Shown: in pieces, positions 118-58,323 of the stretch
Numbering within the stretch: the first letter of the stretch is position 1
Layout: each line of letters starts with the position of its first letter
Origin: Citrobacter gillenii
GTDB lineage: Bacteria > Pseudomonadota > Gammaproteobacteria > Enterobacterales > Enterobacteriaceae
Assembly: GCF_013337685.1 (NCBI RefSeq)
Contig: NZ_SUQN01000003.1
Coordinates: 62,001-126,000 of the forward strand
DNA: 64,000 nucleotides
Reading direction: 5' to 3'
Position numbers and translations under genes: made by a program
The notes under the pieces: generated by a model
The model's input: the letters and a program-made list of their open reading frames with translations, nothing else
Told to the model about the DNA's origin: nothing
The model's database searches: none

Positions 118-188
118 GCTATGATTAGCCGCTATTTTTACACAGCAACACTTGTTCTGACTGAAGTTTGACACTACCGAGGTGTACT

Positions 189-1586
189 ATTTTTACCCGA
201 GTCGCTAATTTTTGCCGCAAGGTGCTAAGCCGCGAGGAGCGCGAGGCCGAGCTTGCCGTCGCCCGTCCACATATGACGGTAATCCCGCGTGAGCAGCACT
301 CTATCTCCCGCAAAGATATCAGTGAAAATGCCCTGAAGGTAATGTACAGGCTTAATAAGGCTGGATACGAGGCATGGCTGGTCGGCGGGGGCGTACGCGA
401 TCTTTTGCTGGGCAAAAAGCCGAAAGACTTTGATGTCACGACCAACGCGACCCCCGATCAGGTTCGGAAACTGTTCCGTAACTGCCGTCTGGTAGGACGT
501 CGTTTCCGTCTGGCCCATGTGATGTTTGGCCCGGAAATTATCGAAGTGGCAACCTTTCGCGGACACCATGAAGGCAGCGAAGCCGACCGTGCAACCTCAC
601 AGCGCGGTCAAAATGGTATGCTGCTGCGTGACAACATCTTCGGTTCCATCGAAGAAGATGCGCAACGCCGCGATTTCACCATTAACAGCCTTTACTATAG
701 CGTAGCGGATTTTACCGTTCGCGATTACGTCGGCGGGATGCAGGATCTGGAAGACGGCGTCATTCGCCTGATCGGTAATCCTGAAACTCGCTATCGTGAA
801 GATCCCGTGCGTATGCTACGCGCCGTCCGCTTTGCAGCAAAACTCGACATGCGTATCAGCCCGGAAACCGCCGAGCCGATCCCACGTCTGGCAACCTTGC
901 TGAACGATATTCCGCCGGCACGCCTGTTTGAAGAAGCCCTTAAACTGTTACAGGCGGGCTACGGCTACGAAACTTATAAGAAACTGCGCGAGTACAGCCT
1001 GTTCCAGCCGCTGTTCCCGACCATTACCCGCTATTTCACCGAAGAAGGTGACAGCGCAATGGAACGCATTATTGCCCAGGTACTGAAGAACACCGATACC
1101 CGTATCCACAACGATATGCGTGTCAATCCGGCGTTCCTGTTTGCCGCCATGTTCTGGTACCCGCTGCTGGAAGCCGCGCAGAAAATTGCTCAGGAAAGCG
1201 GTCTGGCCTACTACGATGCTTTCGCTCTGGCGATGAACGACGTGCTGGACGAAGCGTGCCGCTCGCTGGCGATTCCTAAACGCCTGACATCGCTCACCCG
1301 CGATATCTGGCAGCTTCAGTTACGCATGTCCCGTCGTCAGGGAAAACGCGCCTGGAAGCTGATGGAGCATCCGAAATTCCGCGCAGCCTACGATTTACTG
1401 GCGCTGCGTGCCGAAGTGGAAAACAACGCCGAACTGCAGCGTCTGGCGCAGTGGTGGGGCGAATTCCAGGTTTCCGCGCCACCAGAGCAAAAAGGCATGC
1501 TGAACGAGCTGGATGAAGAGCCAGACGCACGCCGTCGCCATCGTCGTCCGCGTAAACGTGCGCCGCGCCGCGAGGGAAGTGCGTGA
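189..1586 (+). CDS. pcnB: Poly(A) polymerase I, predicted ATT (AUU) start
   Basis: Adds 3' poly(A) tails to RNA, which speeds decay of mRNA, of sRNAs and of ColE1-type RNA I. The nucleotidyltransferase core is clear near the N terminus: the [12 protein letters not shown] loop followed by [10 protein letters not shown] with the metal-binding DxD-like acids, then RRDFTINSL and the [19 protein letters not shown] stretch of the tRNA-NT/PAP family. The C terminus is very basic ([14 protein letters not shown]), as in the E. coli enzyme. A TTG at 168 opens the frame, but ATT at 189 gives 465 residues, the E. coli length, begins (M)FTRVANF as in E. coli, and has GAGGTG at 179-184 just upstream. E. 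coli pcnB is one of the few genes known to start at AUU, which keeps its expression low. The stop TGA overlaps a possible GTG start of folK. Confidence 0.93.
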
Positions 1587-1597
1587 CCCATCGCGTA

Positions 1598-1720
1598 TAC
1601 CCAACGGATTTCGGGTTGCATCAAGACGGCGACACAGCGAATGCCCTGGAGCGTACATCAGTACGTGACAGGGATGAGCGAGGAAAGCCAACACAGATGC
1701 AGCCAGAAAGACGACGGGTA
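1598..1720 (+). repeat. ERIC element (123 bp) inserted in the 5' end of folK
   Basis: The segment begins TACCCAACGGATTTCGGGTT and ends CGACGGGTA. These are the imperfect terminal inverted repeats of the enterobacterial repetitive intergenic consensus. The core carries the ERIC landmarks: GCGAATGCCCTGGAGCGTAC, then GTACGTGACAGGGATGAGCG, then AGCCAAC. It is flanked by TA on both sides (1596-1597 and 1721-1722), as expected for a TA target duplication. Removing it joins the folK codons before and after into one coherent start (M-T-H-R-V-Y-I-A-L-G-S-N). The insert length (123) is a multiple of three and no stop is in frame. Confidence 0.9.
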
Positions 1721-2188
1721 TATATCGCACTCGGCAGCAATTTAGCCTCTCCGCTGGAACAGGTTAATGCTGCCGTACAGGCACTGGGAGAAATCCCGGA
1801 CAGCCGGATCGTCGCCGTATCCTCCTTCTACCGCACGCCACCATTGGGTCCTCAGGATCAACCTGATTACCTGAACGCTGCCGTTGCGCTGGAAACCACG
1901 CTCGCGCCTGAAGAGTTGCTCAACCACACGCAGCGTATCGAGTTGCAGCAAGGGCGAGTACGGAAAGCCGAACGCTGGGGTCCGCGCACGTTGGATCTCG
2001 ACATCATGTTGTTTGGCAACGACGTGATTAATACCGACCGTCTGACCGTTCCGCATTACGATATGAAAAACCGGGGCTTTATGCTGTGGCCGCTGTTTGA
2101 AATCGCGCCGGAACTGACTTTCCCGGACGGTACCCGTCTGCATCAGCACCTCACCCTCCTTGGCGCAGAAAAACCTGCCCACTGGTAA
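1697..2188 (+). CDS. folK: HPPK, 6-hydroxymethyl-7,8-dihydropterin pyrophosphokinase
   Basis: Transfers pyrophosphate from ATP to 6-hydroxymethyl-dihydropterin in folate synthesis. Family signatures are the first strand VYIALGSNLASP, YRTPPLGPQDQPDYLNA, and RWGPRTLDLDIMLFG, whose two Asp bind the Mg ions. The start is unsettled. The ATG at 1697 gives 163 residues (E. coli has 159) and lies inside the ERIC element, so the first residues MQPERRR come from the repeat; a purine run, AGGAAAG, lies 9 bases before it. The older start is probably GTG 1583, which overlaps the pcnB stop and has GAGGGAAG just upstream. It stays in frame through ERIC and would give 201 residues. Both products keep the whole kinase fold, because the ERIC right end restores the strand-1 codons. 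Confidence 0.9.
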   Translation: MQPERRRVYIALGSNLASPLEQVNAAVQALGEIPDSRIVAVSSFYRTPPLGPQDQPDYLNAAVALETTLAPEELLNHTQRIELQQGRVRKAERWGPRTLDLDIMLFGNDVINTDRLTVPHYDMKNRGFMLWPLFEIAPELTFPDGTRLHQHLTLLGAEKPAHW

Positions 2189-36547: not shown

Positions 36548-36586
36548 GGGGGTATTCCTTATCTATCTAATACGTTGAGTTATCTG

Positions 36587-36634
36587 GAACCTGTCCCATT
36601 ACGTTCTCGCCAGAGAGCGTAATAAGACAGGTTC
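36587..36634 (-). other. Long stem-loop in the pdhR-aceE gap
   Basis: Arms 36587-36603 and 36618-36634 pair over 17 bases; in minus-strand RNA the odd pairs are G-U, so the stem is best there. No U-run follows. It may be an mRNA-processing or attenuation element separating low pdhR from high aceEF expression. Confidence 0.55.
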
Positions 36635-36710
36635 TGCGTTTAGTTGCCGCGCACTTTAAATGGCGCTTGATTTACAACATCTTCTGGTTAACTTGCTGCC
36701 AGAAAAATCA

Positions 36711-51095: not shown

Positions 51096-51110
51096 TTTGT
51101 TTATCCATAA

Positions 51111-51136
51111 AAAAGGCGCAGAATTCTGCGCCTTTT
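51111..51136 (-). terminator. secA-mutT terminator
   Basis: The 26 bases form a perfect palindrome, AAAAGGCGCAGAA and its complement, ending in T-run on either strand. It ends most secA transcripts; some read-through may serve mutT. Confidence 0.85.
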
Positions 51137-51151
51137 CAGTGAGTTATTTGC

Positions 51152-53857
51152 TTAGCTCAATCGACCATGGCACTGCTTGAATTTTTTACCGGAACCGCAA
51201 GGGCACGGATCGTTACGACCGACTTTACGATCGCCGGTCTGCGCAGCAAGTTCTTCTGCTACAGCAGATTCATCATCTTTGTGGCTCAGTTGCTGCATCT
51301 GCGCTAAACGCTCAGCATCTTCGCGACGCTGCTGCTCCATTGCTTCGACTTCTTCAGGCATACGCACCTGAACTTTGCTCAGAGTACTGATCACTTCATA
51401 TTTCAGCGACTCCAGCATCGATGCAAACATAGAGAAGGATTCACGCTTGTATTCCTGCTTCGGATCTTTCTGCGCATAACCACGCAGGTGAATACCCTGA
51501 CGCAGGTAGTCCATTGCTGCCAGGTGCTCTTTCCACAGGGAATCGAGGGTTTGCAGCATCACGCCTTTTTCGAAGTGGCGCATCATTTCTGCGCCCACAA
51601 CCTCTTCTTTACGCTGATACACTTCAATGGCGTTAGCCAGAATACGTTCACGCAGCGTCTCTTCATGCAGCTCAGGTTCTTTATCCAGCCACTCTGAAAT
51701 CGGCATCTCGAGGTCGAAATCGTTTTTCAAACGTTCTTGCAGGCCCGGAATATCCCACATTTCTTCCAGCGACTGAGGCGGAATATAGGCATCAATAGTG
51801 ACTTTGAAGACGTCTTCACGGATGCTGTTAATCGTTTCGCTAACGTCAGTCACATCCAGCAGTTCGTTACGCTGGGTGTAGATGGCGCGACGCTGATCGT
51901 TGGCAACGTCATCGTATTCCAGCAGCTGTTTACGAATATCGAAGTTGCGGCTTTCTACTTTACGCTGCGCGTTGGCGATGGCTTTGGTTACCCACGGGTG
52001 CTCGATCGCTTCGCCCGGCTTCATACCCAGTTTACGCATCATTCCTGACACACGGTCAGAGGCAAAAATACGCATCAACGCATCTTCCATCGACAGGTAG
52101 AAACGAGAAGAACCCGCATCCCCCTGACGGCCAGAACGACCACGCAGCTGGTTATCGATACGACGAGATTCGTGACGTTCGGTACCAATGATGTGTAAAC
52201 CACCGGAGGCTAATACCGCGTCGTGACGCACCTGCCAGTCGGCTTTAATCTGCGCGATTTGCTCTTCGGTCGGGTTCTCCAGCTCGGCAACTTCTGCCTG
52301 CCAGCTCCCGCCCAGCACGATATCCGTACCACGACCCGCCATGTTGGTGGCGATGGTCACGGCTGACGGATAACCCGCCTGTGCAACGATCGCCGCTTCG
52401 TTGGCGTGGAACTTGGCATTCAGCACGTTGTGCTTAATACCGGCTTTGGTTAGCTCGTTAGAAACCACTTCAGATTTTTCGATGGAGATAGTCCCCACCA
52501 GCACCGGCTGACCGTTAGCGGTACGCTCTTTAATATCTTCAATAATAGCCTGAATTTTTTCCGCTTCAGTCATGTACACCAGATCCGGTAAATCCTTACG
52601 GATCATCGGACGGTTGGTCGGCACGACAACGGTATCCAGTTTGTAGATAGAGCTGAACTCAAACGCTTCGGTATCCGCTGTACCGGTCATACCGGCCAGT
52701 TTTTCGTACAAACGGAAGTAGTTCTGGAAGGTGATGGATGCCAGCGTCTGGTTTTCATTCTGGATATCCACGCCTTCTTTCGCTTCAACGGCCTGGTGCA
52801 GGCCATCGGACCAGCGACGGCCCTGCATGGTACGTCCGGTGTGTTCGTCGACAATGATAACTTCGCCGTCTTTCACAATGTAATCAACATCGCGAGTAAA
52901 CAGGACGTGCGCGCGCAGCGCGGCGGTTACGTGATGCATCAGCATAATGTTGCCCGGAGAGTACAGTGACTCGCCTTCATCCATAATGCCTTCATTCACC
53001 AGCAGTTCTTCGATCAGTACCAGACCTCGTTCGGTCAGGTTCACCTGACGCGCCTTCTCATCGACAGAGAAGTGGCCTTCGCCCTGGAAGGTGTCAGAAT
53101 CGTCTTTCTCCTGACGCACCAGATGCGGGATGATTTTGTTCACTTTTTTATACATTTCCGAGCTGTCTTCAGCCGGGCCGGAAATGATCAGCGGCGTACG
53201 CGCTTCATCGATCAGGATGGAGTCAACTTCATCCACCAGCGCATAGTGCAGTTTACGTTGAACGCGCTCTTCCGGGCTAAACGCCATGTTGTCGCGCAGG
53301 TAGTCAAAACCGTATTCGTTGTTGGTACCGTAGGTGATATCGGCGGCATAGGCTTCACGCTTAGCAGGCGCGGGCAGGCCAGACATGTTGATCCCTACGG
53401 TCATACCGAGGAACTCGAACAGTGGGCGGTTATTCTCGGCATCACGCTGTGCCAGATAGTCGTTGACGGTCACCACGTGTACGCCTTTACCGCTTAACGC
53501 GTTCAGGTATGCCGGCAGCGTCGCGGTCAACGTTTTACCTTCACCGGTACGCATCTCTGCGATGCAGCGCTCGTTGAGCACCATACCGCCCAGCAGCTGC
53601 ACGTCGAAGTGGCGCATACCAAATACGCGTTTACTCGCTTCACGTACCACCGCGAATGCTTCAGGGATCAGGCTCTCAACGGTCGCGCCTTTTTCCAGAC
53701 GCGCGCGGAACTCAGCGGTCTTCGCTTTCAGTTCATCATCGGAGAGTTTTTCCATCTCCGGTTCCATGGCATTGATGACGTTGACCACTTTGCGCATACG
53801 ACGCAGTGTACGTTCGTTACGACTACCGAATACTTTTGTTAATAATTTGATTAGCAT
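51152..53857 (-). CDS. secA: Preprotein translocase ATPase SecA
   Basis: Motor that drives unfolded proteins through SecYEG. 901 residues, as in E. coli. Walker [58 protein letters not shown], and the C-terminal zinc and SecB-binding tail [14 protein letters not shown]. It lies downstream of secM, which controls its translation. Confidence 0.98.
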
Positions 53858-56892: not shown

Positions 56893-57015
56893 TACACTTC
56901 ATCCTTCAAGCCGCCTCTTTGTTGGCTGCCTTCACTCACTCCCGTCACATAGTAAACTATGCTCCAGGTGATTCGCTCAGTTGCCGCCGCGATGCAACTT
57001 GAATGATGTTGTGTA
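56893..57015 (-). repeat. ERIC element (123 bp) in the ftsA-ftsZ gap
   Basis: Read on the minus strand it starts TACACAACATCATTCAAGTT, has the ERIC marks GCGGCAACTGAGCGAATC, CCTGGAGCATAG, CTATGTGACGGGAGTGAG, GGCAGCCAAC and ends GATGAAGTGTA. TA dinucleotides flank it. Without it the flanks (GACAGGCACA and ACGGAGAGA) join as in the E. coli ftsA-ftsZ gap. Same length and same orientation to transcription as the folK copy, but diverged from it. Confidence 0.88.
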
Positions 57016-57060
57016 TGTGCCTGTCGCCTGAGACCGTAATTGTTGCCGGTCTCATAAAAA

Positions 57061-58323
57061 TTAAAACTCTTTTCGCAGCCAACTGTTGAGTCGTTTGATC
57101 CACGATCCAACCGATGCTGTTACACGTTTTTCAACTTCAGCCTCACCACTCAAATGGGATTCTTTCCCGTAGTGAAGCAACCCCACTGCCGTTGAATAAT
57201 ACGGCTCTTGGGCATAATCTGTCAGACCGGTAATGTTCAGCGGTGCACCAATTCGCACCTGCGTGTGGAACACGCGTTGAGCGCAGGCCGCAAGGCCTTC
57301 AATTTGTGCCGCACCACCGGTTAATACAATCCCCGCCGCCAGATGATGTTTCACACCCTGCTGGCGAAGCTGTTCCTGTAATTGCAAAATCTCTTCGTTG
57401 ACCAGGTTGAGCAGCTCGGTATAACGCGGCTCAATCACCTCTGCCAGGGTCTGACGCTGCAGACTGCGCGGCGGACGACCGCCCACGCTTGGCACCTCAA
57501 CGCTTTCATCTTTACCGACGATAGATCCCAGCGCGCAGCCATGGCGCACTTTGATGGCTTCGGCATCGCTCGGCGGCGTACCAAAGGCATACGCGATATC
57601 GCTGGTTACCACATTCCCTGCGTAAGGGATCACTTTGGTGTGGCGCAACGCGCCGCCAGTATAAACGGCGATATCCATTGTACCACCACCAATATCGACT
57701 ACGCAGACACCCAGCTCACGTTCGTCTTCCGTCAAGACAGAATAACTGGCTGCCAACCCGGCAAATATGAGTTGGTCAACTTTCAGGCCACAACGTTCAA
57801 CAGCTTTAACAATATTCTTCGCCATGTCGTTGTGGCAGGTAATCAGATGCACTTTAGCCTGCATGCGTACGCCGGAAAGCCCTACCGGATTTTTAATGCC
57901 TTCCTGGTAGTCAATGGCGTATTCCTGCGGAATGACATGCAGAACACGATGCTCATCGCGTACGCGTACGGATTTCGCCGTATGCACCACGTTCTCTACG
58001 TCTTCCTGTGTCACTTCCTCTTCGGAAATGGGCACCATACCAATTTCATTCTGACAGCTAATATGTTTACCAGAAAGCGCCAGATACACCGAGGAAATCT
58101 GGCAATCCGCCATCAGTTCAGCCTGGTCAATGGCGCGCTGTACGCATTTCACCACTGACTCAAGGTCATTCACCCCGCCTTTATCCATACCTCGCGATGG
58201 GCAACTGCCCACGCCAATGATATTGACCATACCGTCGGGCAGAACTTCCCCTACTAAAGCGGCTACCTTCGCGGTGCCTATCTCCAGTCCAACTACCAGT
58301 TTTCTGTCCGTCGCCTTGATCAT
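57061..58323 (-). CDS. ftsA: Cell division protein FtsA
   Basis: Actin-like membrane tether of FtsZ. 420 residues. Phosphate motifs [16 protein letters not shown] and [23 protein letters not shown] in the second domain, and the amphipathic C-terminal anchor [14 protein letters not shown]. It overlaps ftsQ by four bases. Confidence 0.98.

Follow-up and report, generated by a model that had tools for sequence, protein, structure and literature searches.

An ERIC repeat in the first codons of folK carries the one start codon common to occupied Citrobacter genomes

The window, a 64,000-nucleotide stretch of Citrobacter gillenii DNA, begins near the junction between pcnB, encoding poly(A) polymerase, and folK, encoding the folate enzyme HPPK. 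The features of this junction are collected in Table 1. The pcnB start at 189 was placed from the profile match: the homologous start (window 168-200) has no ATG, and the NCBIfam PcnB model picks up the TTG-started ORF from its residue 8, an Ile encoded by ATT. In E. coli, pcnB uses a rare AUU start. The HPPK domain scores above curated cut-offs with PF01288 (134.7 bits, cut-off 25.7), which matches from residue 47 of a 201-aa form of FolK, with NCBIfam NF007595 (324.5 bits, cut-off 252), which matches from residue 46, and with TIGR01498 (157 bits, cut-off 54.1). E. coli HPPK structures also align with the 201-aa FolK from residue 46 onward, and the closest named folK loci are from Citrobacter (L051-L054, 89-94% identity).

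Table 1. Features of the pcnB-folK junction, in window coordinates
Feature	Position	Strand	Evidence or remark
pcnB, poly(A) polymerase	189..1586	+	ORF; NCBIfam NF008634, 992.9 bits; Pfam PolyA_pol
CGAGGGAA, Shine-Dalgarno-like, for the old folK start	1571..1578	+	4 nt before GTG; -7.0 kcal/mol
GTG, old folK start	1583..1585	+	overlaps pcnB stop; start at the same place in 6/6 empty congeners
pcnB stop, TGA	1584-1586	+	overlaps old folK start
Left flank	1586..1595	+	one base longer than in empty relatives
ERIC element, TATACCC...GGGTATA	1596..1722	+	127 bp, counting the TA at each end
GAGGA, possible Shine-Dalgarno for the ERIC start	1680..1684	+	12 nt before ATG; wide spacing
ATG within ERIC	1697..1699	+	gives 163 aa; only folK start found in 11/11 occupied congeners
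Conserved FolK (HPPK) body, first Tyr codon to stop	1721..2188	+	Pfam and NCBIfam profiles; structure alignment

Downstream of folK, the window carries panB, while in a C. portucalensis-type genome (L139) fimbrial-operon-like ORFs lie directly 3' of folK and were read by eye as adhesin, chaperone, and usher. A tree of the downstream region places 7 of 25 rows on one very long branch. Elsewhere in the window, Rfam matches above the gathering score are tp2, STnc40, and a marginal PssrA, at 36551-36663, 51109-51176, and 56993-57081.

An ERIC element lies in the interval from the GTG overlapping the pcnB stop to the Tyr codon, the first that is conserved in FolK. To characterize it, we aligned 1596-1722 to the published ERIC/RU-1 consensus (PMC2759123 Table 1a, taken as the reverse complement, in the Wilson-Sharp orientation) and found 98 of 127 positions identical without a gap, with an alignment score of 69 as against a best of -0.5 among 2000 shuffles. 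The same genome (G000) contains 20 ERIC-like matches, including the folK element itself. As RNA, the element is predicted to fold into a hairpin of -59.8 kcal/mol (z -9.47), a value that none of 200 shuffles reached. A TA dinucleotide stands on both sides, empty sites exist in 6 of 17 congeners, and the occupied flank extends one base beyond a plain TA duplication. At its right end, the folK ERIC subfamily has an ATG followed by an open frame, where the E. coli consensus has CTG and then a TGA before the end. An earlier sequence-only reading, which had described a 123-bp ERIC lying between TA dinucleotides, is borne out by these alignments. It had also named two starts, and both stand: ORF reading confirms that the frame of the GTG at 1583 is open through ERIC into folK up to the stop at 2188, giving 201 aa, and the ATG at 1697 gives a 163-aa product beginning MQPERRR (MQPERRRVYIA). 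A hairpin separating the two starts, as had been suggested, is not what the fold shows, since the ATG at 1697 is situated within its stem.

To follow the element across genomes, we read the junctions one by one in 17 genomes of the genus, with one or two genomes representing each species. Seven carry a full copy, four carry a short copy lacking 59 bp, and six are empty. In each of the six empty congeners, the Tyr codon lies 8 nt after the pcnB stop, and FolK reads M-T-x-x-Y from the GTG that overlaps that stop. In the seven full copies, which include the window's genome and a second genome of its species, the gap between the pcnB stop and Tyr is 134 nt; in the short copies it is 75 nt, with the 59 bp missing between two ACACAG-like repeats. 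All 11 occupied congeners have 9 nt of left flank after the pcnB stop, compared with 8 nt in all six empty ones. Separate transposition of an ERIC that was already short is not favored: the 68-bp form occurs end to end only at folK in the four short-copy genomes, whose other matches to this form cover its left part only.

A set of 80 named enterobacterial loci comprises 58 with the 8-nt gap, 3 full, 2 short, and 17 with other gaps; the five occupied loci are all Citrobacter and, as they seem to duplicate five assemblies already counted among the 17 genomes, were not taken as extra cases. In a second genus, seven of eight genomes are empty. The eighth (G241) retains only the right end of ERIC with its ATG: it has lost the pcnB end and the old folK start together with the left portion of the element, and a pcnB stop lies shortly upstream of the remnant. 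G241 came from a sample of 392 family genomes searched at a strict threshold that returned a match in 14 and possibly missed other remnants. An E. coli collection of 5426 genomes had matches to folK in 1579, all of them short of 80% coverage of the query, and added nothing further on the element.

Comparison with the empty sites changes the frame arithmetic of the sequence-only reading. Its ancestor, with five codons before Tyr, retains both TA copies, whereas the empty congeners have four codons (6/6), the spacing also seen in 58 of the 80 named loci. The TA duplication and the element add up to 125 bp, not to a multiple of three; the net gain of 126 bp at occupied full sites comes from these 125 bp and one base of left flank present in all 11 occupied congeners. 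The extension amounts to 42 residues beyond the 159-aa form of the relatives rather than 41. Because the extra base carries no date of arrival, the frame need not have been intact at the time of insertion. An in-frame ERIC without a stop is a correct description of this window but not of a conserved property, as the four short copies are out of frame and one full copy contains a stop. Retention of frame across copies, as in Rickettsia palindromic elements (RPEs), is not seen: the old-start frame is open in only 6 of the 11 occupied congeners.

Loss of this frame reveals which start codons are available to FolK. In all four short copies, the old start is an ATG that is out of frame with folK and opens leaders of 21, 21, 21, and 11 codons. 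Six of the seven full copies keep the old-start frame open; in the seventh (G006), the leader ends at an in-frame TAA after 32 codons, and as this stop is two bases different from the relatives, a single sequencing error is unlikely to explain it. In these five frame-broken genomes, every ATG, GTG, or TTG able to start FolK lies within ERIC. The ERIC ATG, eight codons before Tyr, is present in all 11 occupied genomes and is the sole start common to all of them. Three of the four short copies, and thus three of the five broken genomes, have an extra in-frame GTG inside ERIC at -11 or -12 codons, and G241 has one at -10 codons, located in the pcnB end outside the repeat and accompanied by the ERIC ATG, so that the ATG is not the sole candidate in those genomes. 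In-frame ATC and ATT codons, possible rare starts, occur in the short copies as well. In G006, by contrast, the five in-frame codons from the TAA to the ATG include no ATG, GTG, or TTG and no ATT, ATC, ATA, or CTG, and the next ATG, GTG, or TTG after the ERIC ATG lies 18 codons inside FolK. In the accessible text of PMC5821084, folK is essential according to Keio and PEC and conditionally essential in TraDIS. Given this essentiality and starts found only within ERIC, the five broken genomes can hardly do without a working ERIC start; they are not independent cases, as one deletion is common to the four short copies.

We then compared the repeat-encoded leader with the FolK body. Over 37 leader codons, pN/pS is 1.01, as against 0.10 for the FolK body, in six full-copy genomes (G004 was left out as near-identical), figures to be read with the caveat that the pooled pairs are not independent and that the inserts differ little (mean pairwise divergence 0.079, six full copies). 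Counted by codon in seven genomes, variable positions with synonymous changes only and those with replacements stand at 4 to 13 in the leader and at 81 to 24 in FolK (Fisher p 3e-5). Selection on a repeat-encoded tail is rejected on both measures, and the leader behaves as neutral, unselected protein sequence, to judge from these substitutions. Taking the available codons and their variation together, what evolution has kept is the start donated by ERIC and not a selected extension, and in some Citrobacter the repeat now holds, on codon content, the only place where the reading of folK can begin. The sequence-only reading was right that an ERIC in the first folK codons offers two starts. Of its alternatives, a new start or an extension, the new start is favored as the part conserved across species, and the extension shows no selection on its amino acids. 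Empty relatives devoid of the GTG overlap, the observation it had named as speaking against it, were not found, as six of six use the overlapping start.

The translation signals at the two starts differ. The predicted cost of opening the RNA is 14.2-28.3 kcal/mol at the ERIC ATG and 10.0-18.6 kcal/mol at the old start, and it is higher at the ATG in all 11 occupied genomes. This cost suggests that the ERIC ATG would be weak without coupling and argues against simple independent initiation. Shine-Dalgarno energies, computed against a typed-in anti-SD sequence, range from -6.9 to -10.8 kcal/mol for the ERIC ATG of short copies, at a spacing of 5-7 nt; full copies have a weaker and worse-placed match, with a spacing of 12 nt (11 nt in G006). 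The leader starts with ATG in the short copies and with GTG in the seven full and six empty congeners. The better Shine-Dalgarno and the ATG leader start of the short copies may both have come down with a single haplotype. Among the five broken genomes, the leader stops lie at -18, -22, +8, +8, and +8 nt relative to the ERIC ATG. A leader stop near the downstream start is thus present in all five, a comparison that does not apply to the six in-frame congeners. By analogy with iraD, these stop positions fit the arrangement that is usual where re-initiation is coupled.

We propose that ERIC entered folK after the old start and ahead of the first conserved codon, and that its right end would have given the gene a new ATG, in frame and at a distance of eight codons from Tyr. 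Ribosomes arriving through coupling to pcnB would still enter at the old start and read the left part of ERIC as a leader, and this translation would melt the hairpin that otherwise buries the inner ATG. In the in-frame lineages (the window and five other full-length genomes), the product would be a 201-aa FolK with a neutral tail, probably together with some 163-aa FolK. In lineages whose frame was broken by the 59-bp deletion or by a stop, the leader would become a separate ORF of 11-32 codons ending between 22 nt before and 8 nt after the ERIC ATG, and FolK would start inside the repeat. Translation itself, the coupling, and the ratio of products are what we infer here. Resting as it does on the observed element, empty sites, broken frames, remaining start codons, and lack of amino-acid constraint, this explanation, an inner start donated by ERIC and reached from pcnB by a leader relay, is in our judgment a likely one.

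How the two starts are used in this particular strain bears on a closely related alternative. The 201-aa form is probably also made here, with the 163-aa form beside it, since the GTG keeps an intact signal and the hairpin buries the ERIC ATG. It is quite possible, if short of probable, that the old GTG is the main start and FolK chiefly the 201-aa form, the ERIC ATG mattering only in derived lineages. The GTG has the same Shine-Dalgarno match as the empty relative G015 (-7.0 kcal/mol at 4 nt in the window, with equal energy in G015), its frame is open in six of seven full copies, and opening the ERIC ATG here is predicted to cost 25.2 kcal/mol compared with 18.6 kcal/mol for the GTG. The leader nevertheless shows no amino-acid constraint, and one full copy (G006) is stopped, although absent constraint speaks against selection on the tail only and not against its production.

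The ERIC right end was also followed away from folK. In 392 genomes it has six exact matches at other places, and all six continue into the flanking sequence for only 8-28 codons. Within the genus, 13 non-folK matches with up to 3 mismatches were found, of which 11 read 5-18 codons and two read into folP; these two are one locus in two genomes of the window's species, and the folP start and its ribosome site are intact. With right ends outside folK seldom reading into genes, a general role of ERIC as a start donor is weak. The folP locus itself (G000:C21:369566-369758; L182, L183 in G004) holds an ERIC with extra internal sequence just 5' of the gene, which encodes dihydropteroate synthase; the ATG of this element stands 14 codons ahead of the usual folP start and in the same frame. 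The folP and folK elements are not linked, as ERIC lies 5' of folP in 3 of 17 genomes, among them G016, which has no folK ERIC.

Chance in-frame ATGs of this kind, such as the one 5' of folP in G000 and G004, which leaves the gene's normal start in place, together with the short reads at all six exact matches and a leader pN/pS near 1, agree with a neutral passenger at folK: the FolK N-terminus would tolerate additions, the ATG would be in frame by chance, and leader and hairpin would be inert. We hold this tentatively, as something short of an even prospect. In the broken lineages, FolK needs the ERIC start, so the element is not dispensable there, and the short copies pair a better Shine-Dalgarno with an ATG leader start, though possibly as one inherited haplotype. 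Alternatively, the ERIC subfamily could be a portable translation-start cassette of ATG, open exit frame, and hairpin that, once inserted among a gene's 5' codons, replaces the gene's start and works as a leader/hairpin switch under the control of ribosomes coming off the gene upstream, complete at folK in several Citrobacter. We think this improbable; if true, it would tie the output of a folate enzyme to pcnB translation via the repeat.

The 7.7-kb upstream tree and the folK tree each need at least seven changes between occupied and empty states. Grouping the 11 occupied genomes as one clade is rejected on the upstream tree (p-AU 7.7e-8) but not on the folK tree (p-AU 0.16). Between species, the folK ERIC copies are 0.90-0.96 similar, compared with 0.89-0.94 against ERIC elsewhere in the genome. 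The shared site, orientation, and extra base point to one insertion that spread between species by short-tract exchange. G012, with a full copy, and G009, with a short one, are sisters upstream in pcnB and differ near the junction, a pattern that fits expectation from local exchange. Independent ERIC insertions at the same TA, invoked to explain the patchy distribution, are unlikely: they would account for the state changes, for the rejection of one clade upstream, and for folK copies that are not clearly closer to each other than to ERIC elsewhere, yet they sit poorly with a site, an orientation, and an extra base in the flank that all 11 occupied genomes share, with a folK tree that does not reject a single clade, and with G012 and G009 being alike upstream and unlike near the junction. 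In the full-copy group, the insert divergence of 0.079 compares with 0.23-0.52 at third positions in nine folK bins; because the folK copies are about as close to ERIC elsewhere, recent spread, hairpin constraint, and conversion are not separable as its source. Across the 17 congeners, third positions of pcnB and folK are similarly divergent in most of ten bins. End branches have a median of 0.067 in the folK tree, about twice the 0.031 of pcnB, and the trees disagree on several rows, which is suggestive of local exchange around folK.

Taken as a whole, the locus offers a natural experiment in which a mobile repeat of the intergenic type appears to have become indispensable, with the site available empty, occupied in frame, occupied but out of frame or stopped after a deletion or a new stop codon, and, in a second genus, pared down to the start-bearing end. 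It also carries two warnings for annotation: choosing the longest frame yields a FolK of 201 aa with added residues on which no selection is seen, and the ancestral start in short-copy species is not a folK start.

Fusions of ERIC/RU-1 with annotated ORFs are already known (Delihas 2007, PMC2759123), whereas our searches of the open-access literature met no takeover of a housekeeping gene's start, neither by an ERIC located at folK nor by one standing in for the start of another conserved gene; subscription papers fell mostly outside this scope. The word folK is absent from the accessible text of PMC2759123. As in the cases described there, a 127-bp ERIC with a long RNA hairpin contributes codons to a chromosomal gene with which it is in frame. 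Those cases, as far as the accessible text presents them, are C-terminal additions to conserved enzymes (ECA3499, ECA0168) or short or hypothetical ORFs, with no start takeover, and its Discussion places RU fusions to conserved superfamily proteins at C-terminal regions. In contrast, the conserved housekeeping gene folK has its ERIC at the 5' end, where the repeat would supply the start.

The folK element resembles the Rickettsia palindromic elements (Ogata 2000, 2002, as cited in the available part of PMC10969869) in being a palindromic mobile repeat in frame inside a working gene. RPEs are described in that source as in-frame insertions that add a peptide, whereas five of the 11 folK copies have lost the frame, and the role of the repeat there is that of a start. 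Transcribed ERIC hairpins in Yersinia, whose mRNA stability effects (De Gregorio 2005, as cited in the accessible portions of PMC2229807 and PMC10969869) provide another precedent, can likewise be remodeled by translation; they lie at gene 3' ends and act via RNase E, while the folK ERIC lies at the 5' end. In iraD (PMC5574718, from its accessible text), a leader ORF stops at the start of the next gene and the start region is folded, as at folK. There, coupling through a short upstream ORF with a hidden Shine-Dalgarno was demonstrated experimentally and is under CsrA control, whereas coupling at folK is proposed from the arrangement of the junction, and its leader would come from a mobile repeat.
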